DNA from: Trachythela sp. YZ-2020
Lineage: Eukaryota; Cnidaria; Anthozoa; Malacalcyonacea; Clavulariidae
Assembly: GCA_016169945.1 (NCBI GenBank)
Contig: JADLSH010000252.1
Location: forward strand, 1-64,000
Direction of reading: 5' to 3'
Length of the DNA: 64,000 nucleotides
Both the position numbers and the translations under genes were made by a program. Each line of letters opens with the position of its first letter. Position 1 is the stretch's first letter. The notes under the pieces are model-generated. The model had not been told where the DNA came from and did not search any database. It saw only the letters and a program-made list of their open reading frames with translations. Below are positions 3,433-54,120 of this stretch, piece by piece.

Positions 3433-4530
3433 TTAGTAACAGCATGTACTTGGCTGGCTGGCTTGGCTTGGCTGGCTGCTTCCCACTTGGATGGAAGAAC
3501 GAATATTCTCTACGCTATCTTTCACCTCACTGGCACTTGGTCGATGGCGTGGATCATAACTTAACATGTTTTGGATCAATCGCATCATGGAGTTGGACCC
3601 CTGAAAGCTGGATGGAAATAATACTTTTTTGTTTGGATCAATTTCTGCCATGGCGTATCCAAGTCCAACTTTCCCAGTCGGCGGTGAGCAGGTCAGAAAC
3701 ACACCATACATCTTTTTCGTGTCCGTTTGAATGAAATCACGTGTTAAGATTGCGTAGAATATTCCTCCAAGTGAAAAGACATCTGCCTTCTCTGTATAGC
3801 GCTCGTGATAGAACTCTGGGGCCATCCAGTGTATAGGGCCAATACCGGAAGTCATGTAGTACATCTGTACCGATTGGGAACTACTATCGGCGTTCTTCAT
3901 GGCAAGATACTCTCGCGCCAATCCGAAATCTCCGAGCTTTAGGTCTTCTGTGGACTGGTCAGTCAATAGGACGTTGTCAGCTTTCAGGTCTCGGTGTACA
4001 ATAGGTGGGTTTAGCGAGTGTAAGTAACTTAAGGCTTCGGAAATTTGGCAGATCCATTTTAGATTCGTGTCTCGGGTGCTGCGTTTATTTAGCCGAGAGT
4101 TCAAGTCTCCGCCGGAACAGAACTCTGTTAAGATGAGGAGTTGGGACGACCATTCATAAAAATCGTTTCCCAAGATCCGTACGATTCGCTCGTGGTTTGC
4201 TTTAGCCAATGTTTTAGCCTCGCGTTTCGCTACATCAATGCTTGTCTGGTTTTCACAAATAACTTCCTTTAAGGCATACATTTTCCGGTTTGTAATGTCG
4301 TATACTTTATACACAGTGCCAAATGCTCCCCTGCCGATTTCGTCTTGAACCACAAGTTCTATATGCCCAACATTGATTTGCTTGCCTTTAGACAGTACAG
4401 GCATTATTGAAGAAATTTCTTGTTGACGCGAAGAACGGGCCGGGGTAACTTTCGTTTTAAAAGCGATGAGTATATGCGTTTCGGACTGTGATATGATACC
4501 ATCGTTCATCGCTGATTTTCCAAGAAGCAC
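3433..4530 (-). CDS. Serine/threonine protein kinase, single exon, intact
   Basis: A 365-residue protein with a complete protein kinase domain at about residues 60-345. It shows the glycine loop GRGAFGTVY (67-74), the ATP-anchoring lysine in MYALKEV (Lys88), the paired glutamate in KREAKTL (Glu104), the catalytic loop HRDLKADN (179-186), DFG (201-203) and the APE motif in WMAPEFY. It should phosphorylate Ser/Thr, but substrate and pathway are unknown. The HRDLKxDN loop fits Ser/Thr kinases, and no Tyr-kinase signature is seen. There are no introns, which suggests a retrogene or a small lineage expansion. A Ser/Gln-rich tail (about 346-362) follows. The first Met is taken as the start; Met8 or Met43 are alternatives, because the domain begins only near 57. 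A broken paralogue lies in copy B at 48,380-49,330. There is no visible signal peptide or membrane segment. Confidence 0.85.
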   Translation of the reverse strand: MLLGKSAMNDGIISQSETHILIAFKTKVTPARSSRQQEISSIMPVLSKGKQINVGHIELVVQDEIGRGAFGTVYKVYDITNRKMYALKEVICENQTSIDVAKREAKTLAKANHERIVRILGNDFYEWSSQLLILTEFCSGGDLNSRLNKRSTRDTNLKWICQISEALSYLHSLNPPIVHRDLKADNVLLTDQSTEDLKLGDFGLAREYLAMKNADSSSQSVQMYYMTSGIGPIHWMAPEFYHERYTEKADVFSLGGIFYAILTRDFIQTDTKKMYGVFLTCSPPTGKVGLGYAMAEIDPNKKVLFPSSFQGSNSMMRLIQNMLSYDPRHRPSASEVKDSVENIRSSIQVGSSQPSQASQPSTCCY

Positions 4531-5067
4531 ATGTTAATTAGCTTTACAAAGTATCATCGTCATAAGCCCAAATAGACTTCCTTTCAATTTGGTGGCGTGA
4601 GGGGGACGTATGTCCCAACTTTTTGGACATTTGTAATCATAGAAATATATGTTACATTTCGTCAGTTGGCCGGCTCCATCCCCTTATTTCGTAGTGGACT
4701 GTCGCCCCAGTATATTTCAGGGAATTAAACGAAACAATGCTACCGTAGTTCTCAGAAGTGATATGACATGTAACACAGAGTCAAAAGTTATGAAAACGTT
4801 TCTATTACGTACCAAAAATACTCCTTTAACATTCGCCATGGCCAATATAATACAAGAGAATTAAAATGCTCTTGCTTTGATGTAAAATTTCCACCGTAAA
4901 ATTATTAAAACATACCCATATTTACAACGCTGAATTCTCGCTCTCCAGCCTCTGCCATTTAAATAATCAATATCAATCCAATAGCAACATTGCATCATTT
5001 TACGCTAGCTGCCTCTAATTATGCACACTAAGGGCCATCCTCGAGCCCTGGGAACGAGGATGACTAA
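4531..5067. other. Non-coding, nothing recognised
   Basis: Upstream side of the kinase gene. No long open frame, repeat or TE signature that I can support. It has no counterpart in copy B, where a different transposon follows the kinase pseudogene. Confidence 0.4.
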
Positions 5068-6263
5068 GGGGCTGTTTACATGGAGTAAGCCGATATATGT
5101 TACCTACCAACGACTCTAGTTCTTTCCATACAGATACGGATGCTATGCGCGCTTTCCCGAGACGAATTTCACACGTGTTTACATGACACTGTTCAGACGC
5201 GGGCTTAAATAATATAAACACTGAACTTTCCAATGAACCTGAAATCATACTTTTGCGAACAAGTTTCACAGTTATAACCCAAAGAAATGATCACAGAGAC
5301 CTTTTACGATCGAAATCTGTCCAGAAAATGTCATATATTCGCATAAGCACGACAATAATTCCCAGTCCGGGTAGGCGAGCCAGCTCGGGTCATTGCGTTT
5401 AAATGGAAAATTCCAGCCCGCTTTCAGCGAGATCCCGAGTCAGTCGAGGGCGGAGTCTTGCTTAAGCGGGCCAGCTCAGTACCCATATAAACGCAAGATG
5501 AAATTTAATAGGAAATAATAACAAACGCGGGAATTCGCCAAAACCGGGCCAGCTCGCGTGGGTACCCGGGCCAGCTCGCGTGGGTACCCGGGCCAGCTCG
5601 CGTGGGTACCCGGGCCAGCTCGCGTGGGTACCCGGGCCAGCTCGCGTGGGTACCCGGGCCAGCTCGCGTGGGTACCCGGGCCAGCTCGCGTGGGTACCCG
5701 GGCGAGCTCGCGTGGGTACCCGGGCCAGCTCGGGTACAGTGGCGCCGTGGCCGGTGGGGCCAGGGGGGGCCATGGCCCCCCCTATCGTTGAGACCCGTCG
5801 GAAAATTGGAAATTTGTTATGTTGTCGGAATCTTCGTGGTCAAGCATACCTGCATATACGAGCGGGAATTTTACTTCTCTTCGTTGTTTGACAATGCGAA
5901 ACATGTTTGAATAAAAAAAATATATAGATGAAATATCGGAAATCGGACTCAGTTTACGTTTTCCAAATATAAGTTTATAGAATAGTGAATATTTAAGAGT
6001 TATATGCTTTATACGATTCCACACATGTAACATTAGCATGGATTTCCGAGCTTTGCGCCTTTACGGCTAACCCCCCCCCCTCATTTTTTCTAAGACTGAT
6101 CAAACTTATGAACATTTTCGTATGACTTTATATATTATTTATGTCGGAAAAAATTGTGTTTGTCGGGAAAATGCTGCCCTTGGCCCCCCCTAAAACATGG
6201 GACCCACGACGCCCTTGCTCGGGTACCCAGGCTTGCTCGCCCCGCGGCCATATAAACAGCCCC
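5068..6263. mobile_element. MITE-like element with terminal inverted repeats, 1.2 kb
   Basis: The left end reads GGGGCTGTTTACATGG. The right end, read on the other strand, is GGGGCTGTTTATATGG. The flanks are TAA on the left and AAA on the right, compatible with a 3-bp TWA target duplication carrying one change, as in PIF/Harbinger elements. There is no transposase inside. The interior holds a 22-bp minisatellite (5,547-5,740). A C-rich/G-rich segment near 5,740-6,210 may be a second nested element. Superfamily assignment is inference. Confidence 0.6.
5547..5740. repeat. 22-bp minisatellite, about 8.5 units
   Basis: Direct tandem copies of a 22-bp unit containing CCAGCTCGCGTGGGTACC run with almost no divergence; one late unit has GCGAGC instead of GCCAGC. 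The unit contains the palindrome GGGTACCC. Open frames in three phases across it are a by-product of the repeat (22 is not a multiple of 3, so three units restore phase) and are not genes. Confidence 0.9.
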
Positions 6264-7036: not shown

Positions 7037-7942
7037 TTAACAGGACGTATAATGTTTTACATAGGGTAACACTTTCGATTTAAATATTTTTCTGTTCTGA
7101 TATCCCTTGTTCCCAAAGAACCTAACAGGATGTAAGAACATAACATCTTCTGAGAATTTGGGCCAAACGTATTTCACGTTAGAAAAATCCTGAAACCCGA
7201 ATATTTCCGGTAAATAGACACCTTTCGCATTCTGCCAAGATTTGAAACCGTCGAGCATACTTAAAATAGTCGGAAATGCTATTTCTAAGAACACTTTATT
7301 TTCAAAAAATATCCTGGAAAGTGTTGCGAATTCCCTACTCAACCTTCCAGGAACGTACGCAAAGTCGGCCCACGTACGAAAACACTTCGTTCTATTTTTA
7401 CCATTACGATAGTGCGTGTATAGCAGTTTTGATATCGTTATTTGGCTTAATTTTGGATTCATGTGAAAAACCGACCAATTTTTGAAAGGTTTTCTCGCAA
7501 TTCTTTAAACCATTCTCTTTTTTCCACCACATCCAATCATCTCGAACTGGTCTGCGATTCATTTCATGAGCCACGTTTTGATTAATCTCTGCTCCTTTCC
7601 AAATGTTATCCTTGTCCAATTTCGCAAAATTCCACCAGTTAACAATCATATCATCGTTAACAAACATATACCCCCTGTAACCCGGATGCAAGCGCATTAC
7701 TCTCCCCAGGCACTCGTAACTATAGTAACCACGCGGTCCGAAATCCACGGCTAAAACCTGGAACTCGGTACTGGATTTAGGTCCACAAACAGCAACGTGG
7801 GGGAATGCATCTTTATACTGAGATAAGATGAAAGGGACAGTGCTGTAGAATGGATAATGATATACCACGACCAAGAGAACATCTTGGAAGTAATTCTTGA
7901 GACATTTACCACCGCTCGTGTCCACAAAATTTCTGTATTCTC
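7037..7942 (-). pseudogene. Glycosyltransferase-like C-terminal exon, frameshifted (copy A)
   Basis: Near-identical to the intact exon at 52,113-53,020. The same acceptor (CTCTCTACAG, exon from 7,942) and the same NDDMIVNWW motif are present. The reading frame breaks near 7,421-7,430, where copy A reads TAGCAGTTTTGAT and copy B reads TAGCAACATTTTGAT, a 2-bp net loss. After the break, the second half is still open to the shared C-terminus. Either copy A lost function after the duplication or it encodes a truncated protein of about 178 residues that loses its C-terminal half. Apart from the shift, substitutions are few, so the loss looks recent. Confidence 0.8.
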
Positions 7943-9160
7943 CTGTAGAGAGAAATAAAACAAAACGTTAAAGTATGCATTTCAAGACGATCAGGAACTA
8001 TTTTAAGGGAATTATATTGCTGCCAAAAGAGCAAAAAGGGAAAAAATATAATTTTGCGGCATGTTAAATAGCAATGGAGCATTGAAAAGCTCTGTAGCTA
8101 ATCAGTTCAGTGCAGTACTGAACTGTTTAATAATCTTATACAGGGCTTTTTTACGAATTCGTCAAGAGGAGGTCAAGGAAAAGGAACCTAACTAGGAGGT
8201 GGTGAACTGCAAGAGAACGACCTTCTGGAAGGACCTGGTGTTTGTTAGTCTCTGGGGCTAGATTTCCTGCATTTTCAGAGATAATTTTTGATATATCCCA
8301 TCTGGACAGAAAGAATATTAACTATGAAAGCAATGTTTCAGTTTGGTCATGGGAATGTGTACTGTTTTAAAATTTGGGTTCCAAAGCTTATATGTTAAAA
8401 AAGCATTCATCCTGGAAGCTCGGATATTTACAACCGGGTATGTGAGAACATAGCGGATTCCAAAGTTGTCCGCCATTATGTCATGGACGGTCTTCTACGT
8501 TATGCGCATGCGCGAGTTTAGGCCGGGAGAAAACTGGTCACTATTTACCTCATTATTGGCTAATACAAATATTTTGTGTTTTAATGTTGCATCACGATTT
8601 TAACTGCCACTTTGCAATCCTTTTTCAAAAATTTCTTTTATACTCGGGTCATCGAAAAGTACAGAGTCTTCAAAACAAGATAAATGAAAATTTTCAAGAG
8701 AAAAAATCAAGGAGAAGTCAACAGGAGAAAAAACAGTCGAATGACCGGGAAAAGGACACAATTTTAAAGTTTTGAAGCATTTTAAACGGTAAGTGTCTAT
8801 TTTGCGTACTTGCTATTAGCGTGCATGCAGTTTAGTTTGTGGATATTTGGCAAAGGCGTATTGAATAATCTCAAAAACTTCATTTCAAAATTAAAGTTTG
8901 TGAAAATATTATATTCTTTGACGTTTTTGTGAAATGTCTGAGGTTGAATTTTACAGCAAATCAAAGCTAAAAGAGTAGATAATAATAATACACCTAATTT
9001 ATATAGTTGAGCAATTCATCATTTTATAGTTAAAATACAAATCTTATGACTATTTTACCATCATTTTTTTAAATGTAAAAGAAATTCACCATGTTGCGTG
9101 TTACCATGGTTCCATGGTTACTTCATGTTATAATAATTTTTGGGAAGTATAATTGCTTAG
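7943..9160. other. Intron or intergenic, duplicated, no gene recognised
   Basis: On the minus strand this precedes the glycosyltransferase-like exon, so it is probably intronic. It is shared with 53,021-54,120 but no open frame is conserved between the copies. Confidence 0.4.
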
Positions 9161-10661: not shown

Positions 10662-10671
10662 GGAAAATCAT
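10662..10671. other. Target-site duplication, left copy
   Basis: GGAAAATCAT directly before the element end GGCTATC. The same 10 bp follows the right end at 20,564-20,573. Copy B has a single similar site, GGAAATCTT at 57,863-57,871. Confidence 0.9.
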
Positions 10672-11556
10672 GGCTATCTTTAAAAGCAGGAACGGGGAAT
10701 CTGGGAACGGAACGGGGAACGGAACGGGGAACTTTAAAAACAGGAACGCGAAAAGCCGGAATCTTTAAAAACAGGAACGCGAAAAGCCGGAATCTTTAAA
10801 AACAGGAACGCGAAAAGCCGGAATCTTTAAAAACAGGAACGCGAAAAGCCGGAATCTTTAAAAACAGGAACGCGAAAAGCCGGAATCTTTAAAAACAGGA
10901 ACGCGAAAAGCCGGAATCTTTAAAAACAGGAACGCGAAAAGCCGGAATCTTTAAAAACAGGAACGCGAAAAGCCGGAATCTTTAGGAATCGGGCAACGGG
11001 GAATCGGGCAGTGGGAAAATCGGGCGACGGGGGGAGTGAGGGAAACGGGGAGCGGGAGAATACCGTATTCCCCCTTTTAAAGATCTTTAAAACCCGTATA
11101 AATACTAAAATCGGTAGGCTCTAGCCATTGCCGAATGCCGCCGAAAATTGCCGTTGGAAAACGGGAATATATCTGGTTTCATGCGCGCATATATTGGCAG
11201 AAAGCGTACGACATTATCTACATTTCGGTGGTATTTATATTTTTTCTAGCTACAATATTGAGCGAGAAATCATTGCCTAAACGAGGGTGTCGAATTGCCG
11301 TCGATATAGTGAATATTATATTCTAGTTGGAATTTATTTGTCTGGTTTCATGCGCGCGTTTCAACCGCTTATATTAACTCGCATATTGACAGAAAGCTTA
11401 TGAAAATATCTACACTTTGGTGCCATTTATATTCTCGTAGCTACGACAGTGAGCGAAAAATCATTGCCTCGTTCAAGCAATGCGCATTTGAGATGGTTTG
11501 ATTGACATGTTTACGCCCATGTCACATTGGCGGCATTTGGCGCAAGTTAGCAATGT
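10672..11556 (+). repeat. Left long terminal inverted repeat of the MULE
   Basis: An 885-bp inverted match to 19,748-20,563. It is nearly identical over the non-satellite part: I see about one substitution (CCCCC versus CCCCA near 11,075), a repeated 11-12 bp GGAACGGGGAAC word, and two extra 31-bp units. A 63-codon open frame inside it is identical in both TIRs, which reflects TIR identity and is not evidence for a gene. Confidence 0.92.
10732..10983 (+). repeat. 31-bp subterminal tandem repeat, 8 units
   Basis: Eight head-to-tail 31-bp units containing CAGGAACGCGAAAAGCC lie about 60 bp from the element end. The right TIR has six units. Subterminal repeats of this kind are often transposase-binding sites in Mutator and related elements; that role here is inference. 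Confidence 0.9.
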
Positions 11557-12303
11557 ATATATTATTAGTGTATTGCGGTATATATTATTATAGAAGATTG
11601 AAGAGTTTAGAAAACCACAATTTTAATGATATATCTAAGGTACACGTGTTCATGAATAGCTTCAATTATTTTAAAATTATAAGATCTGGACTATGGCCAT
11701 TATATATACAGTAATATAGTAGCTCTTGGGCACTAATATTGCGTCAACAGTGCTATTCGAAAGCGGGATGTGACGTTCACTGTCTGGCCAGTCACAAGAG
11801 CATTGTGTCATTCATATGTGCATATCGATGATATAAAACATTCATAAGTACAAAAGTACATTCAAAAACATTCAAAAGTACATTCATATGCGCATATAAG
11901 CTGATATAAAACGAATGATCATGAAATACAGTAAGAAATCTAATCTATGGTACTGTGCAAACAACGTCTTCATAAAATGTATCTGACCACGCGGCATTAT
12001 GCACGTTGCTAATCAGTTTATAAGAAACTCAACATATGTTGAAAATTTTAACCCGATAGACCGATATATAACATAACATGAATTTGAAGTTTATATTCTT
12101 TATATTATAGTCTGGGAACTTGGTACAAACTTACATTTTGTACCAAAATACCCTATGAGTCACAATTGTTCGCCTTACTACAAATTAGTGTTTTAGCATT
12201 GACCTTAGCCGTTTAATTTAAGGTCAAACCAAAATTTACTGCTAATTGCTGAAATGTTCTTGATGGAGATGGGGCAAAAACTCATGGCCAATGTTCAGAA
12301 CAT
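11557..12303. other. Non-coding interior of the MULE, left side
   Basis: Lies between the left TIR and the 3' end of the transposase gene. It is AT-rich, with no recognisable coding or structural signal; it probably includes the transposase 3' UTR. Confidence 0.4.
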
Positions 12304-13799
12304 TTACAGAGAAGTCAGATATTTCATCAAAATACATTCCTTGCGAAGATGGAAGTGAACGTTCTGTGGTGATGCACTTCTTTGTAGTTGCCCAGACAGC
12401 CTATCCCTGTATTCGCGTACATCACGACAGAAAACAATCAAATCATGCGGACGCTGCACAGGCGGGTTCTGAATACGTCCATTACACCCATAACACTTTT
12501 TAACGGTTGTCCCTTGTACCCACTTTAAAAAGAAAAAACCATTGGGCAGGATTGTAGTTGGTTGGGCCATAAGATTTGTCGTATTCTGCGTTGGGGGAGT
12601 TGACCTGGAAACTCCAGCGACTGATGGCATGGACGAATTTGTAGATTGGCAATGATTCATTGAGGTAAACCACAGCCGCTGAACGTAGGTGGAATATGGC
12701 TGGTATGGTGGAACTCGCTCGCCATTGAAGGGTAATGACTCGAGGAACTAACTGGTGGTATGCTGCATCTTCTACTAAGAGAGGATTCGGAAAAACTGGA
12801 TCTGTGGTGTTGCAAGACATTTACAGGTGTCGCGCTGTAGTATGCAGTGGAAGTGTGGAATTGTTGTGGTGGAAATGCCGCACGATGCTGCTGACTATTA
12901 TTTGCTGCAGTTGTAGTTGGTTGCGTGCTACGGGAAGACGTACTAGTCTCATTGTTATCACCAAACAAGTCGACGTATTCTTCCACCGCTTGTGCTTTTG
13001 AATTCGACCGCTTTCTCTTCGACGGTTTTTTCCCGGCATTCTTGGGTCCTCTTTCATCAACCATATCCATCATAACCGGTTGCTTCTTCTTTCTCTTAAA
13101 CCACGCAATAAATTCGTGAAGTGTTCCTCTCAGCTGCGCAACGGCGAGAACGTGTTCGCAGATTTTCGTAGCATGGTTAATGCATGTACGATCGCACACT
13201 AAACAGCCACCTTTTCCGGGAGTAACGATGTGGACTTTGTTCGACGTCCCAGCAACTACAAAGGATCCATCGTCAGCTCCAGGCTTTCGGATAACATTTC
13301 CCTTGGATATAAGCAAGTTGGAGGCTTTCTCAAACATGGCTTCGAGTATTGGTGCTGGCACTGTTGTGATTCCACTCTCCTTCGCGCTAATACCCAATGA
13401 CGATGCTTGTTCTTCTTCTTCCGAGTTGGTTCGATCAGAATTTATGACATCATTCTTGTCATTCATTCCTGCATTTTTGAATTCCATCAACTTTTTTGTC
13501 ATTTGAGCATGGCTCAAATGGCTTCTCTCCACCTCGTCTATCGTAAGATGCGTGAAACCTGGTCGCACTCGATACATTCCTTTGCCAAACACAGCGCGGT
13601 CTTCATTGCGTTGTTGGGTTTCAATAATGTCCTTGATCTTGTCAATAAACTCGTGCGGCTTTTTCGCGTTGAAATTAAGGCCGTGCTTAATGATAAAGTT
13701 TGCGGACTCAGGGTCGTTATTGGTATAGGCTGATGGAGGATTTCCAAGTCCAGCTTCCGTTCGGACAGGTTTTAACATCGAATCCTTCATATCGGCTGC
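12304..13799 (-). pseudogene. MULE transposase, last exon (SWIM-like finger and C-terminal Cys/His domain)
   Basis: The exon follows an acceptor at 13,800-13,801 (ATTTTTATCAG) and joins in phase 0 to the core exon ending at 14,918. It encodes a helical segment, then a SWIM-like zinc finger (CLVCDRTC ... KICEH, about 13,140-13,210), a basic tract (KRKKKQ, KKPSKRKRS) and a Ser/Thr/His-rich linker. The frame breaks by one base near 12,660. It then continues to a C-terminal Cys/His cluster (KKCYGCNGRIQ ... VFCRD ... HFHLRKEC) and a stop at 12,304. SWIM fingers after the catalytic domain are characteristic of MULE transposases. The frameshift makes this copy non-functional as a full protein. Confidence 0.8.
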
Positions 13800-14917
13800 C
13801 TGATAAAAATATGTGTTAAAAATAATACTGTTAAATTAAAGATTAAATGAATTAGTGAGGGTAGTTTTTCGCTCTTGTGCTGCGGTGCAGGTAACCCGCG
13901 AAACGTCTACGCGGAACTTTTCTTTAACTTCTCAATTTTTGGATTTCATATGACGTCATACATTTCAGTGGAGGTCAACTCTAAATCGAGACACAGTAAT
14001 CGGAGTGAGTTAATTGTTCACTGTATGTATTGTTCACTCTATGTTCAGTCCGATTAGCCGGGTAACTCGCCTCCACATAATCGGACCCTTAGTTGAAATT
14101 AAATGGTATTGGCAATGGAAATTTAGTTTGTCCATAGTTTGTTTAATTTAAAAGAACTAGTAAAATTATTAATATAGAAATATCGACACCGAAATGAGTG
14201 AGCTGGCCACCATCTTGGACTCGTTTCTATGACTGAAATTGCAAAGAAATTCTGAATCTAAAGAGGATAAGAAGGCTTATTATGATGCACATCACAATCA
14301 TTTAAATTAGTCTGAATTATGAAAGGGGTCTATAAAACATCTAGTAATTGTTATTTGGTTACCCAAGAGTAGTTTTACACGGTTAATCTCGCTTGTGACC
14401 TCACTAAAACCACCGTCAATGAGATGGTATTTCGAAAACTAAGCAAGATATGAAGAACTGTTAAAAGAGATTTATATATAATTTCAACAGTTCTTGTATG
14501 CGAGTTCGATGTTTGTCAGACCTCTATAACCGTGAAAAGATGGTTCACGGAACAGTGCCGTGGAGGGACGTTCGTAGGGTAAATGGTGTACGGAAAAGTT
14601 TGAAAATAGGCATGGGAAATGCAATTTCCAATATTCTCTATCAACGGCAACGGTTCGTTAATCATACAGCAAGGTCATTGTTTTTAAATGTAAAGATTAA
14701 ACTATTTGTAATGTATATCTTTGTACTGGACCTCCTAAATTTTTACATGTCAATCCCTTTATTAACACGAATAATTAAGCATGACCTCTTGTATAGAGGA
14801 AGAGGTCATGTCGTCATGGTAATTTCGCCCCCCTCTTACAGCACTGCTTCAAAGGAGACACATATACATAGGAAGTATTCGGGTATTTAATGTGAAATAT
14901 ACAACTGGTTCTAATAC
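13800..14917 (-). other. Probable intron of the MULE transposase gene
   Basis: Bounded by a GTATTAG donor at 14,917 and the acceptor at 13,800 on the minus strand, with phase 0 on both sides. Nothing else recognised inside. Confidence 0.55.
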
Positions 14918-15997
14918 CTTTTCATCCTGAAACCACTCATAGAACGTACGTTTGTTGCCACCATTCCCATGCTCTTTCTCTCTTTCCTCCCAGCTTAGTT
15001 TGAGGTCTTGAAGCTTTGCGTCGCATTCTTCTTCAGTCTCACAGTCGACGAGTCCAAAATATTTCACAGAGCCTTCCTGCTTGCCGAATACTTCTGACAC
15101 GAAAGCTTTTGGCATCACCCGTTATTCCTCTACTCGCGAGTTCTCTTTCGATATTGTCTTTAAAATGCAGAAAACATCGTAGGAAAACAGCAAAACGCAT
15201 GTTTCGTTTAAATCCATCAATAAGGGCTTTTTCGCCATCGGTTCCAACAGCAAGAATACCCTCCAGTTCTGGTTTGAGAGTTTTCAAAGCATGCGCAAAC
15301 GTTGAGTACGTCTGCCAATCCTTCCTTTGGTGCATAAGTAACGGTCCCACAAACACAGGTGCTTTTCCGGTTTTCGGGTTTACTAGCTTGAGATTTCTGT
15401 AGGTTGTAACGGTGAGGCTGATGTTGCGATCAAATACGTTAAACGTTGGATCAATTCCAAGAACACTGTATTCCGTTGGGTGTGTGCAGAATTGAACAAG
15501 CTCTCTTAGTTGCTGGTCGTTTGCAATAACAACAAAGAAATCCGGATGTATTGCACATTTACGTATGAATACTGCGTCCTTAGAGCGTTCTTCGTCTCTC
15601 TTTGCGCGTTCTAGGAGTGTCCACACGCTACTTACACTAATATTTTGACTAGTTTCGCCTTTTTCACTTTCATCATAGGGCGCAGAACGAGACTCAGAAG
15701 ATTGCTTTGCTGAGTGTCTGGCGTTATACATATCACTTGGCCCTCTCGGTAATTCACCAACAGACCTGGCCATTGTAACATCGCCTGATGAGCGATATAC
15801 CTCATCAAGAGCTTCTTTAACCGTATTTTCTTTATCAAGTACAGACTTTTTCATCTTGTCTCTTGTGCTGGGTAGAAGCCGCATGTAAGAAGATTTGAAT
15901 TTGGAATTCCCATGAGGCTTGATACATTTAACATCATGTTCTGTGCCACTGAACAGGTACTGTACAAGCGCATAAGGAAGTTCATTACCACAGTTAT
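14918..15997 (-). pseudogene. MULE transposase core exon (DDE-type catalytic domain)
   Basis: The exon starts after the acceptor TTTCTCCAG (15,997) and ends at a GT donor after DEK codons (14,918). The translated part runs from NCGNELPYALVQY through a SVWTLLERAKRDEER segment to the catalytic region. There, GIDPTFNVF supplies the first and AVGTDGEKAL the second catalytic Asp of the MULE DDE fold, followed by CFLHFKDNI. A one-base shift near 15,108 moves the frame to PKAFVSEVFGKQEG and the rest of the exon. I assign the family from the order of these motifs and the downstream SWIM-like finger. This copy cannot make an unbroken transposase. It carries no sign of recoding, so I treat the shift as decay. 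Confidence 0.82.
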
Positions 15998-16408
15998 CTG
16001 GAGAAAAAAGAAAACGATTCTTTCAATGTTTAGCCGTATCCAGAAACATCGAATGTGGAGAAAAGACGTGAAACTCTGTATACGAAAACATTCAACATTT
16101 CATTGCCCGTATATAAACTGTTGATTAAAATAATGCGAAACGTAGCCTATAGTTCTTTGTTTTAAAGTCTTTAGTTCTCTGAGCCAAGTGCTTTATAAGG
16201 AAACAAAGAAATACTCAACAGGCCAAAAGCACATGTATTTTGTAAATCAAAATCCCCCTGCCACGGCAACTAACGCCACACGGAAACCCGAACGTCCTAA
16301 CCCAACGCGTCCCAGCAAGAAACGTGATCGCAGTTTGAATGTATATATACAATAATAATTTTTCGCCAAATTTTGTGGATTTGTTAATAACCGTTATTCA
16401 ACACTTAC

Positions 16409-16840
16409 CATTTAATTTTGAAACAATTTTGCGAACATCTGGGTCAGAGACGTTCCTGTAATAAGTTCTTTTCAACTCGTAAACGTCTGTTTCAGATGTA
16501 GAAGACGACTTATCTAGCGAACGAATCTTCATGATCCCTTTGAATCCCTTTCAGCGCGAAAAGGCGTTTAGGTGAGCCATTGTACTTCCACGCCCCATAT
16601 CATCGCATTTCAAATCATCTCGATGTTGTAGGAACTGATGTCAACAGGAAGGAAACGTTATGTGAAACGTTTAAGGGTTGCGATATGCATGTGTGCTCAA
16701 GTTCGTACTTTCCCATTAAGATGCGAACGATTTGTTCCCCGTTATAGGCTTCCTTACTCCTTGAGAAGACAGGAGTCATCGCGTCATCCTTGTAAGGTTC
16801 ACCAGAAGGTTTAAACGCTTCCATTGTAATATCATTGTCA
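16409..16840 (-). pseudogene. MULE gene, upstream exon, broken
   Basis: The acceptor TTTATTACAG opens the exon at 16,840, and a GTAAGTG donor closes it at 16,408. The entry phase matches the exon at 16,934-16,995, and the exit phase matches the core exon (a split Asp codon). The start reads NDITMEAFKPSGEPYKDD. A frame break near 16,630 and an in-frame TGA near 16,555 separate it from a second half containing HRDDLKCDDMG and ELKRTYYRNVSD. The second half resembles the N-terminal region seen ahead of MULE domains in other animal elements (from memory, moderate trust). Confidence 0.65.
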
Positions 16841-16933
16841 CTGTAATAAATAAACAAAAGCGACAATGTTAACTTCACGTTGTAACTTCATGCAAGCAGC
16901 TAAGCATAGCAGGTTTAATGTTTGATAACTTAC

Positions 16934-16995
16934 TTCACGAAATCGTGATCTGATGAAATATCACTTGTCCCGTCCTCTTTGTCCATGATATCATC
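16934..16995 (-). pseudogene. Small upstream exon of the MULE gene
   Basis: Bounded by AACAG on the 5' side and GTAAGTT on the 3' side. It encodes an acidic DDIMDKEDGTSD tract. Its phase-2 exit fits the next exon exactly. Which gene product it belongs to (transposase alone or a larger kinase-containing protein) is not settled. Confidence 0.5.
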
Positions 16996-17079
16996 CTGTT
17001 TAAAAGACGAGGTCCTGTAAGTGCTAAAGCACTTAAAACTACGGTACATATTTTTCGAGCGTTCTCAAGTAGACCTTTT

Positions 17080-17455
17080 GCATAATAAACAAAATTTTGA
17101 TCTGAACAAGTTTAGACAAAAATTTCATCACAGCTTGAAAGTTGAAAGAACATCACAAAATTAGTGGTATTCCGAAATTTCGTCGTAAAATGCATATAAC
17201 ATAGCCCGCAAGTTCGCCAGTTTTCAGTCATTTTGTATTTCCATTACAAATGGAAATTGACAGCCCCAAGGCGTTTCCGGCTGTCAATTTCGCGTGCATA
17301 TGGCGCAATAAAAAGACTGAAAACGGCTATATTAGATGCATTTTACAACATTTCGCAACGAAAGTTCAGAGTACCATTAATTTTGTGATGCTCTTTCAAG
17401 ATGTGATTAAAGTTTTGTCTAGATTTGTCTAGATCAAAATTTTGTTTATTATTCA
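17080..17455. repeat. Imperfect foldback inside the MULE
   Basis: The left arm (about 17,080-17,245) and right arm (about 17,290-17,455) are imperfect inverted copies, joined through GGAAATTGACAG and CTGTCAATTT near the centre. They share AACAAAATTTTGATCT at the outer ends. It overlaps the 3' end of a probable exon and may be a small MITE or a decayed inverted duplication. Confidence 0.6.
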
Positions 17456-17602
17456 AAACGTTAATTACTGCTCTAGTTTCCATTTCACCATCATGTTGTA
17501 CATCTTCATTGCTTTTGCCACTTCTTGCTAAGGCTGCGTCCTCACTTCTAAGTCTAACTGCATCATCATCAACTATTTGTGAACTCTCTTGGCCAATTAT
17601 TG
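17456..17602 (-). pseudogene. Probable exon between kinase and transposase parts
   Basis: Acceptor TCATTATTCAG, exon from 17,602. It encodes IIGQESSQIVDDDAVRLRS and further acidic sequence. It joins in phase (split Ser codon) to the exon at 17,881-17,975. Its 3' end is blurred by the foldback at 17,080-17,455. Confidence 0.5.
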
Positions 17603-17880
17603 CTGAATAATGACACAAATCACATGGTAATTAATTGCCGGTTTGCTGGTCCAATTTGGTTTTTGGCAGTGGCAGTTGAGAAAAATCCTGATAACAGAGC
17701 TACAATAGGTCTCTATTTTCTTCAGTATATCTAGTACTGTGTAAAACCAAGAAGATCATATATGCCTGTCTTTTGAAAGATAATTTAAGGGATTTGAACA
17801 TTTTCGTATACATGTGTATAAATAAGCACTTCATATAGCATAAATTGAACATACATAACAAAGCAGTACATATCTCTTAC

Positions 17881-17975
17881 ATTCATTAGAGCTTGAAGAG
17901 CATAGAAAAATAACAGGACCAGATACACCTAATTCTGCCAGATCAGTGGATTCAACAACCCTCTTGGCAAAAGGT
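17881..17975 (-). pseudogene. Probable 95-bp exon between kinase and transposase parts
   Basis: The acceptor TTTTTTTGCTTCTAG has a good pyrimidine tract, and the donor is GTAAGAG. The open phase encodes a segment ending in FLCSSSSNE. It joins the next exon at 17,602 in phase. Joining it to the kinase exon donor at 18,549 fits only in the frame interrupted by a TAA, so the upstream link is uncertain. Confidence 0.45.
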
Positions 17976-18548
17976 CTAGAAGCAAAAAAACTGATGTTAT
18001 AATTGTTGCAACTTGCAAAATTCACCCATCTTATGGGTTATTTTGTAACATACCATGGTTCCAACACAGAAAAGTTAAGTACTAAACTTATATAGTGTTA
18101 TGTACAACACAATGTTTGCAGTTTGCATGAAACATAGAGTTCAAAAAGTGATATAAACAGCTGGAAAATTAGGACAGGATATCCCATTAAATAAACCCCA
18201 TTTCATTTCCAATAACAATTAATGAAATAATTGTACTCCTCCCAACAAACCCCGAATAACCCACAATGCGTTGCGCTAAACACGAAATTCAAGATGCCGT
18301 CGCTATTGATGGATGCGTGAGTTAACGCCTTGTTCAAAATAAAATGTACTTTAATTGAAATTCTTACACAAGACTTACAGTTCACTAGTTTTGCTACATC
18401 CACCTTGGAATGTTTGTGAATATGGTACTCCCTAAAATAATTCAATTTTTTTATTATGAGACAAAATGTGTATCACTGAAAGGAACACCACAACACCTAA
18501 GCAACTGAAAACTATCAAACTTTTGGTAGAATATTGGAGAAGGCTTAC

Positions 18549-19732
18549 CTTGTTTGAATCAACAGAATGGATGTACTGGTTGCTTGTTGAATCCTGGGCG
18601 TTTTCGTTTTCAAATGGCATATTCTCAGAATCAGGGCACGAGAGGCATTTATCTTGGGATTTTATAGCATCAGACTCGCGAAGTTTTCACACTCTGTTGT
18701 CACCATTTCTAATACAGCTTTGGCTGACAATCGCTCACTTGGCGGAAATGATGTGCAAGCCTTAAAAGCTCTGTCGATTGCTAACCAGTCGACCGTTCTG
18801 ATGCGATGATACTTGTCAGAAAATGAGGGCTTCGTTTCTCACGCATTAGGCGAATAAGAACTTCCCGCGCTTTCCAAACACTGTTCACGCTCTCTCCTTC
18901 CATTTCTATACAGTACGGAAATTCTAAATCAGGATTAAGAAGAATGAACATGACCATTCCGAGAGACCAAACGTCGCAGCATTTAAGTCCGTCAATGAGA
19001 ACGATTGACCTTGTTCTGCTGTTAGCATCTCAGGCGAATTGTACACAAGAGTCCTCTTTCAAAGTTGGTCGTTCTTGTATGGCTTGCGACCGCGGTTTGG
19101 TTAAGGCTGATCGGCTTTCGCCAAAATCGGCAAGCTTGCACACTATTGCTTCTTTCTGCCATTCCTTTTCAATTTCAGCTCGGGACTTGAGATTACAATA
19201 GTGTGTATTTGACACCAAAATATTCGCGGGTTTAATATCTCTATGAACGATGTCATTATCATGAAGGTAACTTACCGCCGAGCTAACATCCTGCGCTATT
19301 TTTAGTTTGAGGATGATAATTCCTTCACAAAATTACCACTACAGATAAAATCGAGTAATTCTGTGAGAGTCGTTACGCGATCGCCTTCAATCCCAAGTGG
19401 CTGGAAGTCGAAATAGACGTACTCAAGCATCACCGCTACTGGGCTTTGCTATAACCTTCGACGCGCACGATATGTTTGCACTTTAGATCTTTTAATATTG
19501 ATATCTCTTTGAGAAACATAGCTTTTTCACGCTCTTTCTGTTGCCGCTTTAGCTTTTAACACGACCGTTTTCCTTCGAATTCTGCGGTAAAAACATCCCC
19601 GAAGCTCCCTTCGCCCAGGCGGACTTTATCTTTAATTCCTGCCCATTCAAAAAGCGGTAAATCTTCAATATACGCGTCTAATATTTGCGAACTACCTCGT
19701 TCGAGAATAGGCAACTTAGTCGTAACAGCCAT
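18549..19732 (-). pseudogene. Protein kinase gene carried by the MULE, decayed
   Basis: The ATG at 19,732 lies 16 bp inside the right TIR. The conceptual protein starts MAVTTKLPIL. It has the glycine loop GEGSFGDVF, an ISILKDLKCKHIVRV stretch (region of subdomains III-IV), the catalytic loop IVHRDIKPANILV, a DFG segment KLADFGESRS and the subdomain IX motif DVWSLGMVMF. The order and spacing are those of a complete kinase domain. Several stops and frameshifts (near 19,558, 19,452, 19,320 and 19,030) break it. The conserved invariant residues show it was functional until recently. The exon continues past the domain into an acidic tail and ends at a strong GTAAGCC donor at 18,548, pointing to further exons leading toward the transposase. 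It is unrelated in detail to the kinase at 3,433. Confidence 0.85.
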
Positions 19733-19747
19733 TTTGACACTACTTTG

Positions 19748-20563
19748 ACATTGCTAACTTGCGCCAAATGCCGCCAATGTGACATGGGCGTAAACATGTC
19801 AATCAAACCATCTCAAATGCGCATTGCTTGAACGAGGCAATGATTTTTCGCTCACTGTCGTAGCTACGAGAATATAAATGGCACCAAAGTGTAGATATTT
19901 TCATAAGCTTTCTGTCAATATGCGAGTTAATATAAGCGGTTGAAACGCGCGCATGAAACCAGACAAATAAATTCCAACTAGAATATAATATTCACTATAT
20001 CGACGGCAATTCGACACCCTCGTTTAGGCAATGATTTCTCGCTCAATATTGTAGCTAGAAAAAATATAAATACCACCGAAATGTAGATAATGTCGTACGC
20101 TTTCTGCCAATATATGCGCGCATGAAACCAGATATATTCCCGTTTTCCAACGGCAATTTTCGGCGGCATTCGGCAATGGCTAGAGCCTACCGATTTTAGT
20201 ATTTATACGGGTTTTAAAGATCTTTAAAATGGGGAATACGGTATTCTCCCGCTCCCCGTTTCCCTCACTCCCCCCGTCGCCCGATTTTCCCACTGCCCGA
20301 TTCCCCGTTGCCCGATTCCTAAAGATTCCGGCTTTTCGCGTTCCTGTTTTTAAAGATTCCGGCTTTTCGCGTTCCTGTTTTTAAAGATTCCGGCTTTTCG
20401 CGTTCCTGTTTTTAAAGATTCCGGCTTTTCGCGTTCCTGTTTTTAAAGATTCCGGCTTTTCGCGTTCCTGTTTTTAAAGATTCCGGCTTTTCGCGTTCCT
20501 GTTTTTAAAGTTCCGTTCCCCGTTCCGTTCCCAGATTCCCCGTTCCTGCTTTTAAAGATAGCC
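19748..20563 (-). repeat. Right long terminal inverted repeat of the MULE
   Basis: Inverted copy of 10,672-11,556. It contains six 31-bp subterminal units (20,322-20,511) versus eight on the left. The kinase start codon lies just inside it, so this TIR probably supplies the promoter for the minus-strand genes (inference). Confidence 0.92.
20322..20511 (-). repeat. 31-bp subterminal tandem repeat, 6 units
   Basis: Same unit as at 10,732-10,983, in inverted orientation. Confidence 0.9.
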
Positions 20564-20573
20564 GGAAAATCAT
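20564..20573. other. Target-site duplication, right copy
   Basis: GGAAAATCAT, identical to 10,662-10,671. Confidence 0.9.
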
Positions 20574-36222: not shown

Positions 36223-36401
36223 TGTAATGTAATGCATGCTAATTAATATATTGTAATTATGATAATTATGTAGTTAGAGCCCAGTCTCCAGTGCTGCTAT
36301 AAAGAAGCAGCCATCTTGAATTTATGTAATCTTGTTAGCTAATATAGTGAATACAATCCTTCACAATCCAGGACTCACAGAACACATCAATATATGTTAC
36401 A
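36223..36401 (+). repeat. 5' LTR of the gypsy element
   Basis: 179 bp, TG...CA ends. Differs from the 3' LTR at two positions near 36,354 and 36,364 (A versus G). Confidence 0.95.
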
Positions 36402-36429
36402 TGGTGGCAGCGGTGGGTGAAACACAGTT

Positions 36430-39400
36430 ATGGCTGAATTTCTAGCTCTAAATAAACCACCAGTGTTAGTAATGGATTTACGAGCTAGTGAAAATTGGAA
36501 AAGATTTAAACAAAAATATGAAATTTATGTCATAGCCACTGGTATTCATGCGAAGTCGAAGAAAGTCCAAGCTGCAGTACTCAAAAATCTGATAGGAGAT
36601 GAAGCAGTTGAGAAGTTGGAGTCGCTAGAATTCGCAGAAACCGAAGACAAAGACGATACGAAAGTCTTAATCGAGAAAATGGACGAATATCTAAAGCCAC
36701 TGAAAAACACAACCTACGAAAGACACGTTTTCTTCACAAGAAAGCAAGGTATGTCAGAAAATATCGATGCTTACGTTACAGCCTTAAAGTTAAAAGCTAA
36801 GGATTGTGAATTTGGTGATTTAAAAGACGAACTTGTTCGAGATGTATTAATTTGTGGAATACGTAGTGACTCAGTTAGAGGTAGACTACTAAGAGAAGCA
36901 GCTACTTTGACACTTACAAAGGCAGTAGACATATGTAGAGCAACAGAACTAGCAGAAATTCAAATTAAGTCCTTATCAAGTACTAATAAAGAGCTGGGAG
37001 CAGATATGCTTGGACGACAGCAGAGAAGAAAGCCAAAGAATATCAAACAAGCCCAGCAATATGAAGAATCGAAAGCTCTTCAATGTGGAAAGTGTGGAAG
37101 AAAGCATAAGAAAAAAGAATGCCCTGCATATAGAAAAAAGTGTCATTACTGCCAGAAACCGAATCACTTCGAGAAGATGTGCCGACAGAAAAATAAGCCT
37201 GGCAAAGTACACGAAGTTGAAGAAGAGATAGACGAGCCATTCTATGTTGGAACACTTGAAGTCGTCGATGAAATCAAGGTAGATAATCTCGAAGAGTGGT
37301 GGGTCAATGCTAAAGTCAATAACAAGTCTATAAAGCTGAAGATTGACACTGGAGCAAAATGCAATGTTCTACCTGTGAATCACTACAAACGACTGGACCT
37401 ACCACCAATCCAAAAGAGAAAGGTAAAGTTGGTGAGCTTTTGTAAAACCAAGATTGAACCATTGGGGGAAGTTACAGTTCCATTAGTGTATAAAGATAAA
37501 GAATACAATCTTCAGTTCTATGTGGTTGATCGAGAAGATGTACCCCCTCTGCTAAGCCTGAAGACAAGTGCTGAAGAAATGGAGCTGGTGCAACGAATCG
37601 ACACAGTGTCGGCCAGATCGTTAATAACCGTGCCAGAAGTACCACAAACCAAGGAAATTGCTCGTGGTCTTAAACCAGAAGATATTTTTGAGCAGTATAA
37701 AGATCTATTTGATTGGCTAGGGTGTTTACCTGGCGAACACAAGATCAAGTTAAAGCCTGAAGCAGTACCTGTAATACACCCACCCCGGAAAGTACCAGTT
37801 GCATTACAGACACAAGTAAAGACTGAACTTGAACGAATGGAGAAGCTTCAAGTTATAGAACCAGTGAGTGAAGCAACTGAATGGGTTTCCAGCATGGTGA
37901 CCGTGGTTAAACCAGGAAAAGTACGCATTTGTCTTGATCCGAAAAACCTGAATGCTGCAGTTATGAGAGAACATTACCCAATGTTGACAATAGAAGAAGT
38001 TGTTGCAAAGTTGTCAAAAGCAAGAGTGTTCAGTGTTCTAGATGCAAGTTCAGGGTTCTGGCAAATAAGATTTATTGGAACAATCCGGTATTTGGCAAAG
38101 TTTATTCCATCCCTAAGCCAGACCATGGAACCACTACGAGAGCTCCTTAAGAAGAGTAACAGATGGGAGTGGAGTAATCAACACCAGAAATCATTTGATG
38201 AGTTGAAAAAGAAATGTACAGAGTATCCCGTACTAAAGTATTTTGATGAATCAAAACCTGTTCGACTCTCAGTAGATGCAAGTCAGAACGGACTCGGTGC
38301 AGTATGTTTACAAGATGAACTTCCAGTAGCTTATGCGAGCAGATCACTCACGGCGGTTGAAAGAAGGTATGCTCAGATTGAGAAAGAGTTATTAGCAGTA
38401 GTCAACGGTTGTCAGAAATTCCACCATTATATTTATGGGAAGAAGGTCATTGTGGAAACGGATCACAAACTTTTGGAAAACATCAATAAGAAACCATTGC
38501 CAGATGCACTCCCGAGATTGCAGAAGATGCTGCTGAAGTTGCAGAAGTATGACATACAGCTTGAATACAAACCAGGAAAGTTGTTGTATTTAGCAGATAC
38601 GCTGTCTAGAGCTCACTCAAAAGATACGGAAATACAGGAGACAGAAGAAGAATTTGAAGTGTCCGTAATCTTACCAATGTCCCAAGAGAGACTATTGCAA
38701 CTGAAACGTCCCACTGAAGATGATCCTTCTCTTACAGAGATCAAGAAGGTAGTTTTGGAAGGATGGCCTAACCACAGATCAGAAGTTGATAGAAGAATAA
38801 CAGCTTATTGGGACTTCCAAGAACAAATTTCAATACACGATGGAGTGTTGTTCAAAGGCGAACGAGTCATTGTACCGGATGAGTTGCGACCTGCCATGAT
38901 GCAAAGAGTACATCAAGCACACCAAGGTGCCGAAGCCTGTAAGAGACGAGCAAGAGAATTACTTTATTGGCCCGGAATGAACCAGGATATCGAAGAAGTG
39001 GTCAGAAAATGTAGTGTATGCAATTTACACTCTAGAAGTCAGTGCAAAGAGCCGTTGAAACCTCATGAAGTGCCAGATTTACCGTGGAAGAAAGTGGGAG
39101 CAGACTTGTGTTGCTTTGACGGTCGTGATTATCTGGTCCTTGTAGACTATTACAGTTTCTGGTTTGAAGTCGAGTTGTTGAAAACTACAACGTCTAATGC
39201 TGTGGTTACAGTAATGAAGTCACAATTTGCCAGATATGGAGTTCCTGAAGAACTTATTAGTGATAATTGCCCGCAGTTCCGTTCACAAGAGTTTGAAGAA
39301 TTTGCCAAGTCTTGGAGCTTCGCTCAAACTACAAGTAGCCCTTATTATCCCCAGTCCAATGGAATGGTGGAAAGAGCAGTACAAGTGGCCAAGAGAATTT

Positions 39401-40032
39401 TGAAAAGGGCTAAAGAAGATGATTCAGATCCATATCTAGCGATGTTGAATGCAAGAAATACGCCACGAGATAGCACTGTTGGTAGTCCTGCACAAAGGTT
39501 GCACTCGAGGAGATTAAGGACGGTATTACCAATAACAAAGGAACTCTTAAAACCACAAATGGTTGATAACACCGAGGTTCAACGAAGGCTGGAAAATTAC
39601 AAGAGACGACAGAAATTCTACTTTGATCGAAAGGCTAAACCGTTACCTCCGCTGCAAGAACAAGATGTCGTAAGAATAAAGTCAAAGAATGCGAAGTTCG
39701 ATTCTAAGGCTGTTGTTGAAAGTACGACTAAATATCCTCGGTCATATTTAGTGCGAAAGTCGGACAGAACTTTGTTAAGAAGAAACCGGAAAGATTTACT
39801 CAAAGTTAAAGAACAACTGGCATTACCAGCACCAGACTTCGTGGGTGATTGTGTGGTTCCTTCTGAAGCAGTTCCACAAAGTCCAGAAGTTGCGCATAAC
39901 AGACAGTCGAATGTCGTTCAATTGCCAAAGAACGCTGAGAGTGCTAGACGTCCTACCGAAGAACGTGTTCAGACAACCAGAAGCGGACGGGTTGTTAGGA
40001 AGCCACAGTACCTTAAGGACTATGTGCAATAG
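36430..40032 (+). CDS. Gypsy gag-pol polyprotein, open but lacking the RT active-site region
   Basis: A 1,200-residue fused gag-pol. Domains in order: gag (about 1-210), two CCHC-like zinc knuckles (about 217-251), aspartic protease with KIDTGAKC (about 302-309), the start of reverse transcriptase (about 440-545), RNase H with VDASQNGLG (about 612), the HHCC zinc finger of integrase (about 827-870) and the integrase core with its D, D and E near 890, 943 and 979. At about residue 546 the RT jumps in frame from DASSGFWQI to a segment that normally lies after the palm. The YxDD catalytic motif is therefore absent, although the frame stays open. The order RT-RNase H-integrase defines Ty3/gypsy. 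This copy should be unable to reverse-transcribe by itself and may be mobilised in trans. Confidence 0.92.
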   Translation: MAEFLALNKPPVLVMDLRASENWKRFKQKYEIYVIATGIHAKSKKVQAAVLKNLIGDEAVEKLESLEFAETEDKDDTKVLIEKMDEYLKPLKNTTYERHVFFTRKQGMSENIDAYVTALKLKAKDCEFGDLKDELVRDVLICGIRSDSVRGRLLREAATLTLTKAVDICRATELAEIQIKSLSSTNKELGADMLGRQQRRKPKNIKQAQQYEESKALQCGKCGRKHKKKECPAYRKKCHYCQKPNHFEKMCRQKNKPGKVHEVEEEIDEPFYVGTLEVVDEIKVDNLEEWWVNAKVNNKSIKLKIDTGAKCNVLPVNHYKRLDLPPIQKRKVKLVSFCKTKIEPLGEVTVPLVYKDKEYNLQFYVVDREDVPPLLSLKTSAEEMELVQRIDTVSARSLITVPEVPQTKEIARGLKPEDIFEQYKDLFDWLGCLPGEHKIKLKPEAVPVIHPPRKVPVALQTQVKTELERMEKLQVIEPVSEATEWVSSMVTVVKPGKVRICLDPKNLNAAVMREHYPMLTIEEVVAKLSKARVFSVLDASSGFWQIRFIGTIRYLAKFIPSLSQTMEPLRELLKKSNRWEWSNQHQKSFDELKKKCTEYPVLKYFDESKPVRLSVDASQNGLGAVCLQDELPVAYASRSLTAVERRYAQIEKELLAVVNGCQKFHHYIYGKKVIVETDHKLLENINKKPLPDALPRLQKMLLKLQKYDIQLEYKPGKLLYLADTLSRAHSKDTEIQETEEEFEVSVILPMSQERLLQLKRPTEDDPSLTEIKKVVLEGWPNHRSEVDRRITAYWDFQEQISIHDGVLFKGERVIVPDELRPAMMQRVHQAHQGAEACKRRARELLYWPGMNQDIEEVVRKCSVCNLHSRSQCKEPLKPHEVPDLPWKKVGADLCCFDGRDYLVLVDYYSFWFEVELLKTTTSNAVVTVMKSQFARYGVPEELISDNCPQFRSQEFEEFAKSWSFAQTTSSPYYPQSNGMVERAVQVAKRILKRAKEDDSDPYLAMLNARNTPRDSTVGSPAQRLHSRRLRTVLPITKELLKPQMVDNTEVQRRLENYKRRQKFYFDRKAKPLPPLQEQDVVRIKSKNAKFDSKAVVESTTKYPRSYLVRKSDRTLLRRNRKDLLKVKEQLALPAPDFVGDCVVPSEAVPQSPEVAHNRQSNVVQLPKNAESARRPTEERVQTTRSGRVVRKPQYLKDYVQ

Positions 40033-40202: not shown

Positions 40203-40381
40203 TGTAATGTAATGCATGCTAATTAATATATTGTAATTATGATAATTATGTAGTTAGAGCCCAGTCTCCAGTGCTGCTATAAAGAAGCAGCCATCTTGAA
40301 TTTATGTAATCTTGTTAGCTAATATAGTGAATGCAATCCTTCGCAATCCAGGACTCACAGAACACATCAATATATGTTACA
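40203..40381 (+). repeat. 3' LTR of the gypsy element
   Basis: 179 bp, matching 36,223-36,401 except for two positions. Followed by the target duplication ACCTG. Confidence 0.95.
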
Positions 40382-53020: not shown

Positions 53021-54120
53021 CTGTAGAGAGAAATAAAACAAAACGTTAAAGTATGCATTTCAAGACGATCAGGAACTATTTGAAGGGAATTATATTGCTG
53101 CCAAAAGAGCAAAAAAGGAAAAAATACAATTTTGCGGCATGTTAAATAGCAATGGAGCACTAAAACCTCTGTAGCTAATCAGTTCAGTGCAGTCCTGAAC
53201 TGCTTAATAATCTTATACAGGGCTTTTTTACGAATTCGTCAAGAGGAGCTCAAGGAAAGGAACCTAACTAGGAGGTGGTGAACTGCAAGAGAACGACCTT
53301 CTGGAAGGACCTGGTGTTTGTTAGTCTCTGAAGCTTGATTTCCTGCATTTTCAGAGACAATGTTTGATATATCCCATCTGGACAGACAGAATATTAACTA
53401 TGAAAGCAATGTTTCAGTTTGGTTATGGGAATGGGTACTGTTTTAAAATTTGGGTTCCAAAGCTTATATGTTAAAAAAGCCTTCATCCTGGAAGCTCGGA
53501 TATTTACGCCCGGGTATGTGAGAACATAGCGGATTCCAAAGTTGTCCGCCATTATGTATTTATGTCATGGACGGTCTTCTACGTTATGCGCATGCGCGAG
53601 TTTAGGCCGGAAGAAAACTAGTTACCTCATTATTGGCTAATACAAATATTTTGTTTTTTAATGTTGCATCACAATTCTAACTGCCACTTTGCAATCCTTT
53701 TTCAAAATTTTTTTTATACTCTGGCCATCGAAAAGTACAGAGTCTTCAAAACAAAATAAATGAAAATTTTCAAGAGAAAAAGTCAAGGAGAACTCAACAG
53801 GAGAAAAAACAGTCGAATGACCGGGAAAAGGACACAATTTTGAAGTTTTGAAGCAATTTAAACGGTAAGTGTCTATTTTGCGTACTTGCTATTAGCGTGC
53901 AGTTTAGCTGAGGTTGAATTTTACAGCAAATCAAAGCTGAAAGAGTAGATAATAATAATACACCTACTTTATATAGTTGAGCAATTCATCATTTTATAGT
54001 TAAAAATACATATCTTATGACTATTTTACCATCATTTTGTAAATGTGAAATAAATACACCATGTTGCGTGTTACCATGGTTACATGGTTACTTCATGTTA
54101 TAATAATTTTTGGGAAGTAT
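53021..54120. other. Probable intron, no gene recognised
   Basis: Shared with 7,943-9,160. No conserved coding frame and no structured RNA that I can support. Confidence 0.4.

Follow-up and report, generated by a model that had tools for sequence, protein, structure and literature searches.

Does a protein kinase gene found inside a DNA transposon belong to the transposon, or was it picked up by chance? The question is raised by a Mutator-like element (MULE) in Trachythela sp. YZ-2020, an anthozoan cnidarian. The element lies within the 64,000 nucleotides analysed here, positions 1 to 64,000 of contig JADLSH010000252.1 (hereafter the window). A preliminary description of this DNA suggested that the kinase belongs permanently to the element. 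The copies of the element in the source genome, the ordered pairing of kinase and transposase at many other loci, and the grouping of these kinases in one clade all bear this out, and the kinase is almost certainly a fixed component. Taken as a whole, the locus is explained with good confidence by a group of MULEs carrying a permanent eukaryotic protein kinase, most likely spliced in frame to the transposase.

The element had been described as bounded by long terminal inverted repeats (TIRs) and a perfect 10-bp target-site duplication (TSD), with an empty site in a paralogous block, and all three are confirmed. The TIR arms are complementary at 100% over their outer 54 bp and inner 763 bp; most of the difference between them lies in the copy number of a 31-bp tandem repeat. 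Two 300-bp flanks joined through one TSD give an unbroken match to the empty site with 90.6% identity. The placement of the kinase beside the right TIR, with its own ATG and upstream of a transposase on the same strand, also holds; the spacer between the ATG (19732) and the inner end of the TIR is 15 bp. The kinase exon ends at position 18549 in phase 0 (AACAAG/GTAAGC). About 1.5 kb away follow the transposase exons (16995–12307), downstream on the same strand and separated by GT-AG introns that appear plausible by eye; the last of them was aligned to P0241 and P0242, proteins described below. The features are as follows.

10662–10671, unstranded: left TSD, GGAAAATCAT
10672–20563: MULE element, 9,892 bp
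10672–11556, plus strand: left TIR, 885 bp
10728–10984, unstranded: 31-bp tandem array in the left TIR, 8.3 copies
12307–13799, minus strand: last transposase exon, with a SWIM-like Cys/His cluster (by eye) and the C-terminus; one frame break
14918–15997, minus strand: transposase exon with the conserved DDE-type region; one frame break
16409–16840, minus strand: N-terminal transposase exon; three frame breaks; match to P0242 with E 2e-18
16934–16995, minus strand: short putative exon, DDIMDKEDGTSDISSDHDFV, with a probable phase-0 acceptor at its start
17073–17461, unstranded: inverted-repeat insertion in intron 1; perhaps a nested miniature inverted-repeat transposable element
18549–19732, minus strand: kinase exon with its own ATG and a phase-0 end at a consensus-like splice donor; nine frame breaks
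19748–20563, minus strand: right TIR, 816 bp
20320–20515, unstranded: 31-bp tandem array in the right TIR, 6.4 copies
20564–20573, unstranded: right TSD, GGAAAATCAT, a perfect 10-bp match to the left
57571–58172, unstranded: empty site in the paralogous block, matched by the joined flanks

A search of the source genome (578,087,698 bp in 396 contigs) returned at least 128 transposase matches and at least 106 kinase matches. In all 11 close copies that were fetched, 97–99% identical in DNA, the kinase lies between the TIR and the transposase; these copies keep both genes in the same order, a point that had been suggested as a check. Perfect TSDs of 10 bp, individual to each copy, flank six of the seven other copies for which the fetched DNA reaches both ends, the exception being C96. 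The terminal 29 bp were found exactly at 24 genome sites. Eleven elements have both exact termini, including the window element and a 3.6-kb deletion derivative, and two more (C8 and C161) have one exact end each. Kinase sequence is present in all 13. It is upstream of the transposase in the 12 with a transposase match, and the deletion derivative matches kinase residues 3–178 only. No copy with the same TIRs and without a kinase, named beforehand as decisive against the proposal, occurs among the 13. When up to 3 mismatches are allowed in the 29-bp termini, 297 sites are found, with 0 in the control. Pairing among the 82 sites listed yields at least 15 further elements of 0.85–12.7 kb. By eye, none of the 15 overlaps a listed kinase or transposase match, and they look like non-autonomous relatives. 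Three of them measure 8.7–12.7 kb and may hold other cargo.

The pairing extends beyond this family. Among the matches listed, to which all locus counts here refer, 56 of 94 merged kinase loci have a transposase locus no more than 12 kb away, against a chance expectation of 0.44 pairs. The strands agree and the kinase is upstream in every one of the 56. Twelve pairs are the window element's family, and the other 44 are more divergent. For instance, C55 holds a 595-aa open reading frame (ORF) with kinase and protease-like sequence, followed by ORFs of 208 aa and 853 aa with transposase sequence. In the pair C225/C79, the common DNA starts abruptly about 0.66 kb before the kinase and the flanks are unrelated, from which the kinase seems to have moved there too, at loci where TIRs are not established. 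A single-copy host gene as the source of the kinase, the other finding named as refuting, is contradicted by these many loci, of which 56 sit immediately ahead of a transposase, and by the kinases' own clade against the 10 others compared. An early hint from contigs of at least 10 kb (4 lengths shared between the 45 with a transposase and the 38 with a kinase, 0 within either family) is superseded by the locus pairing. The window element would be one of at least 12 full-length copies of its family, beside one deletion derivative, within a group of many families.

The window kinase carries the three marks of a eukaryotic protein kinase, namely the catalytic lysine (VVLK), HRD (HRDIKPANILV) and DFG (KLADFGESRS). 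Pfam PF00069 matches the piece 19030–19332 with E = 3.8e-12 and the relative P0121 with E 3.2e-34. In a search of 5.8 billion proteins the kinase query gave 123 matches, of which the best 120 were used; Dendronephthya gigantea and Pecten maximus are among the organisms named. The top 96 of the 120 were taken as the kinase family, the cut being set where scores drop steeply. The loop motif HRD-K-..N.LVSN.H occurs in 84 of the 96 and in none of the remaining 24. In structural alignments the element kinase shares 20–26% identity with TKL/RIPK-, JAK- and IRAK-like kinases, none of which is singly closest, and is marked off from them by this loop and, by eye, by a stretch inserted before DFG. Structure and profile matches are tied among several kinase families (RIPK, JAK, IRAK and ULK considered). 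In a tree of 56 sequences, in which RIPK, JAK, IRAK and ULK are not included by name, one branch (100/99) splits the 46 family kinases from 10 others. The window kinase, P0242, P0244, P0168 and a Pecten protein fall on the family side, and the 10 include a host-type kinase of the window. One kinase clade suggests a single old acquisition. Thirteen loci from a kinase-profile search of IMG/VR (22–52% identity) were set aside as unrelated kinases. The Pecten maximus protein P0179, annotated as "spindle assembly checkpoint kinase-like", lies inside the transposon-kinase clade and may be either a domesticated copy or a transposon gene under the wrong name. The host-type kinase gene, at 3433–4533 of the window and NEK-like by reading, lies outside this clade and has a diverged copy at 48596–48883.

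The transposase had been called a MULE/SWIM transposase. Pfam finds no match in the window's own transposase exons or in P0241. PF00872 and PF10551 each match 4 of 24 transposase relatives at E <= 0.1 (best 2.5e-5 and 8.9e-5). Since relatives match Pfam MULE domains, and since the element has TIRs of 816–885 bp and a TSD of 10 bp, within the 8–11 bp of MULEs, the assignment to MULEs stands. The SWIM part may correspond to a Cys/His cluster seen by eye in the exon 13799–12669, P0241 and P0242, for which Pfam gives no SWIM match. Among the 24 relatives, the D of DPTFN is invariant and the D of TDGE nearly so; these may belong to a putative DDE triad. No match to the transposase was found among PDB profiles. 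The transposase exon query gave 197 matches among the 5.8 billion proteins, Paramuricea clavata being named among them, and no relatives in viral and genome contig collections beyond the own genome. A transposase tree adds little.

It is likely that kinase and transposase form one transcription unit. Promoters in MULE TIRs drive the transposase, according to the part of PMC6446971 covered. Here the TIR probably holds a promoter as well, and the kinase, lying under it, would be the first coding exon and the first transcribed. Spliced in phase to the transposase exons, it would give a kinase–transposase protein in the source species. The kinase is read as an N-terminal part of the transposase because the splice sites are phase-compatible and because fused gene models exist. 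A composite kinase–transposase query gave five matches, namely P0241, P0242, P0243, P0244 and one unrelated kinase. P0241 is a Dendronephthya protein with the transposase only. P0242 (1,670 aa) and P0243 (1,510 aa) are single EukProt models running from kinase through a protease-like domain and a linker to a MULE transposase, and P0244 (926 aa) is a divergent composite match with an incomplete kinase.

In some relatives, a Cys-protease-like domain sits between kinase and transposase. Of the 124 proteins P0121–P0244, 31 have the motif after the kinase. A domain of DGTNxC...DTH type is seen C-terminal of the kinase in P0131, P0134, P0168, P0242, others and L064, and is possibly a cysteine protease or deubiquitinase. 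Compared with PDB by sequence, the domain gave nothing convincing (two matches, E 0.5 or worse), and Pfam gave chance-level families only, such as Herpes_teg_N in one of nine members (E 0.087). The fold comparison listed matches for the kinase part only. Between the kinase and transposase exons of the window there is no convincing match to it. A tethered kinase, if catalytically active, may phosphorylate the transposase, partners in the transpososome, or chromatin or repair proteins at the element ends. That the kinase acts on transposition itself is quite possible, if not the likelier case. Slightly more tentative is the proposal of an ancient, widespread MULE group in which an active kinase, often with a Cys-protease-like domain, forms one polypeptide with the transposase.

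The kinase had also been called decayed. The window copy needs nine frame changes in the kinase and five in the transposase exons. However, of the sites invariant among relatives, the window kinase has changes at 1 of 54 in the wide set and 3 of 81 in the near set, and the window transposase at 3 of 94; relatives, each left out of the sets once, depart at up to 4, 7 and 5 sites, respectively. When the 12 copies (that of the window and 11 more) are aligned, substitutions occupy 5 columns of the 1,188-bp kinase exon, and gap events of 1–2 bp number 16. Intron 1 has the same gap rate (21 in 1,556 bp, p = 1). Of the 27 pairs that shared gap columns form, 22 contain columns incompatible with one another. 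Because exon and intron gap rates are equal, substitutions few and gap columns incompatible, the frame breaks look like homopolymer assembly errors. The description as decayed is therefore not upheld.

Several results weigh against the explanation by a permanent, transposase-linked kinase. Thirty-eight of the 94 kinase loci, among them the 3.6-kb deletion derivative, stand without a partner inside 12 kb, as do 58 of the 114 with a transposase. Such loci may be fragments, or their partners may lie outside the matches listed. Over 8 linked pairs, kinase and transposase distances correlate weakly, with rho 0.35, a value reached in 122 of 5,000 permutations. The kinase tree has some long branches among its outgroups, and the Pfam MULE match is found only in relatives, not in the window transposase. 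The fusion rests on gene models and splice phases rather than transcripts. P0242 and P0243 are 98–99% identical and count as one family, whose source genome could be the same or another, and gene predictors can fuse neighbours. The tests of purifying selection on the kinase, suggested as a check, give modest results. The raw contrast of variable columns (kinase exon 5/1,188 vs. intron 1 41/1,556, p = 2.8e-6) is overstated because changes cluster. With events collapsed, the deficit is modest, at 5/1,188 against 24/1,965 for introns 1 and 3 (p = 0.021), and p = 0.054 against intron 1 alone. The five substitutions (1 synonymous, 3 non-synonymous, 1 nonsense) are near the neutral expectation, and transposase exon 3 has no deficit (15 of 434 columns variable, 12 from one copy). 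Near-identical pairs of other families show 15 synonymous and 20 non-synonymous kinase differences, the neutral synonymous share being 0.25 (p = 0.017). Deep conservation of the catalytic motifs is a stronger argument for selection than these counts.

MULEs are known to capture host genes, and together with the nine frame breaks this would fit a one-off capture of a host kinase, now decaying as a passenger. Such an origin is hardly credible given that the 11 fetched close copies are all alike, that 56 loci of many families repeat the arrangement, and that the window kinase has no excess of changes at invariant sites and a gap pattern, incompatible in 22 of 27 pairs and equal in intron and exon, of technical character. 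Scarcely less improbable is that the kinases are a host gene family near which MULEs prefer to insert. The 38 kinase loci without a transposase nearby, the deletion derivative among them, would agree with it, but an insertion preference does not explain why strand and order are constant in 56 of 56 pairs, why the kinase lies inside TIRs and TSDs in this family, or why the DNA common to C225 and C79 begins ahead of the kinase between unrelated flanks.

The frame breaks may instead be real, in which case the window copy, and perhaps the whole family, is dead, though the kinase was once functional. Most copies have small gaps, one has a nonsense change in the kinase, and the whole kinase exon (396 codons) is open in only 1 of the 12. 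The assembly is also not bad everywhere, since the inner TIR arms of the window copy lack such gaps and a frame of 1,203 aa is open in a long terminal repeat (LTR) element elsewhere in the window. Nevertheless, 16 gap events against 5 substitution columns, the equal rates in intron and exon, and homoplasy of the gaps make a dead family improbable, and from the ATG the kinase frame runs for 427 codons in the open copy and 359 in a second. A less remote alternative, still somewhat unlikely, is that the element has the kinase as a permanent gene but produces it as a protein of its own, which acts on host silencing, DNA-damage signalling or BAF-type factors. OTU and Ulp1 accessory genes of other transposons offer an analogy for a host-directed kinase, and BAF is one conceivable host target. 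The kinase begins with an ATG of its own under the TIR and lies about 1.5 kb from the transposase exons; the kinase proteins examined end soon after the kinase or protease-like domain, except P0242–P0244; and the Cys-protease-like motif in 31 of 124 proteins fits host manipulation. The fused gene models, and the splice donor that ends the kinase exon with a matching acceptor phase, speak for a joint protein instead, and the protein ends may say little if many matches are exon-wise predictions.

Compared with known systems, the element resembles the animal MULEs of PMC6446971 (the Ghost sub-group in Cnidaria, MuDR-6_HM and Phantom) in its TIRs, its TSD within 8–11 bp and its transposase gene. 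In the text covered, the MULE groups of that study have one transposase gene, often with SWIM, and some have minisatellites; accessory domains are OTU in MuDR-6_HM, SET in MULE-Phytophthora_1, PMD in plants, and FAR1. Table 1 there lists no group with a kinase, and the word "kinase" does not appear in the main text. The TIRs reported range over 14–500 bp (text) and up to 640 bp (table), whereas those of the window element reach 816–885 bp. The comparison with these groups of Dupeyron et al. (2019; PMC6446971) is one of features. A term search for "kinase" in the available text of two further papers (PMC6431247, PMC10175614) gave none. The earlier statement that no MULE group with a kinase is described agrees with these three papers and with the titles and abstract beginnings searched; subscription papers and Repbase lay outside the search. 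Pack-MULEs likewise hold a host-like gene between MULE TIRs, but they are defined by variable cargo and no transposase. Here all copies seen have the same kinase, which is found again in other families, is conserved, and stands upstream of a transposase in an element of autonomous type.

Host kinases tune transposases, but the literature searched gave no account of a DNA transposon that encodes a kinase. In piggyBac and piggyBat, phosphorylation of N-terminal casein-kinase-II sites appears to inhibit the transposase, as given in the part of PMC11707139 covered. A eukaryotic DNA transposase may thus have its activity set by phosphorylation, which is a precedent and not evidence for the window element. 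There a host kinase is implied, in contrast to the element-encoded kinase here; the precedent is functional only, with no family relation.

Other features of the window lie outside the element. A segmental duplication joins 1439–23535 and 32405–61891 through pieces in the same order, 81–99% identical. A duplicated gene (7037–7967 and 52113–53045) has an open frame of 310 aa in the right block and two frames in the left. The 1,203-aa frame lies at 36421–40032 and by reading belongs to a Gypsy-type LTR retrotransposon, which seems to lack most of the reverse-transcriptase core; its candidate LTR parts (36223–36401 and 40203–40381) are 99% identical. A 22-bp tandem repeat of 8.6 copies at 5544–5732 lies within an open frame coding a repetitive peptide.

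Our study suggests that the transposons of this group carry a signalling enzyme with which they control either their movement or the host cell. That many families keep the kinase beside the transposase points to a contribution of the kinase to the spread of the elements, and a coupling of transposon movement to the state of the host cell can be tested directly through the substrates of the kinase. Some genes annotated as "serine/threonine kinase" in such animal genomes are transposon genes. If kinase and transposase are indeed one polypeptide and the kinase is active, the transpososome would phosphorylate itself, or host chromatin proteins would be phosphorylated or processed on the spot, and this would be the first DNA transposon known with built-in kinase control.

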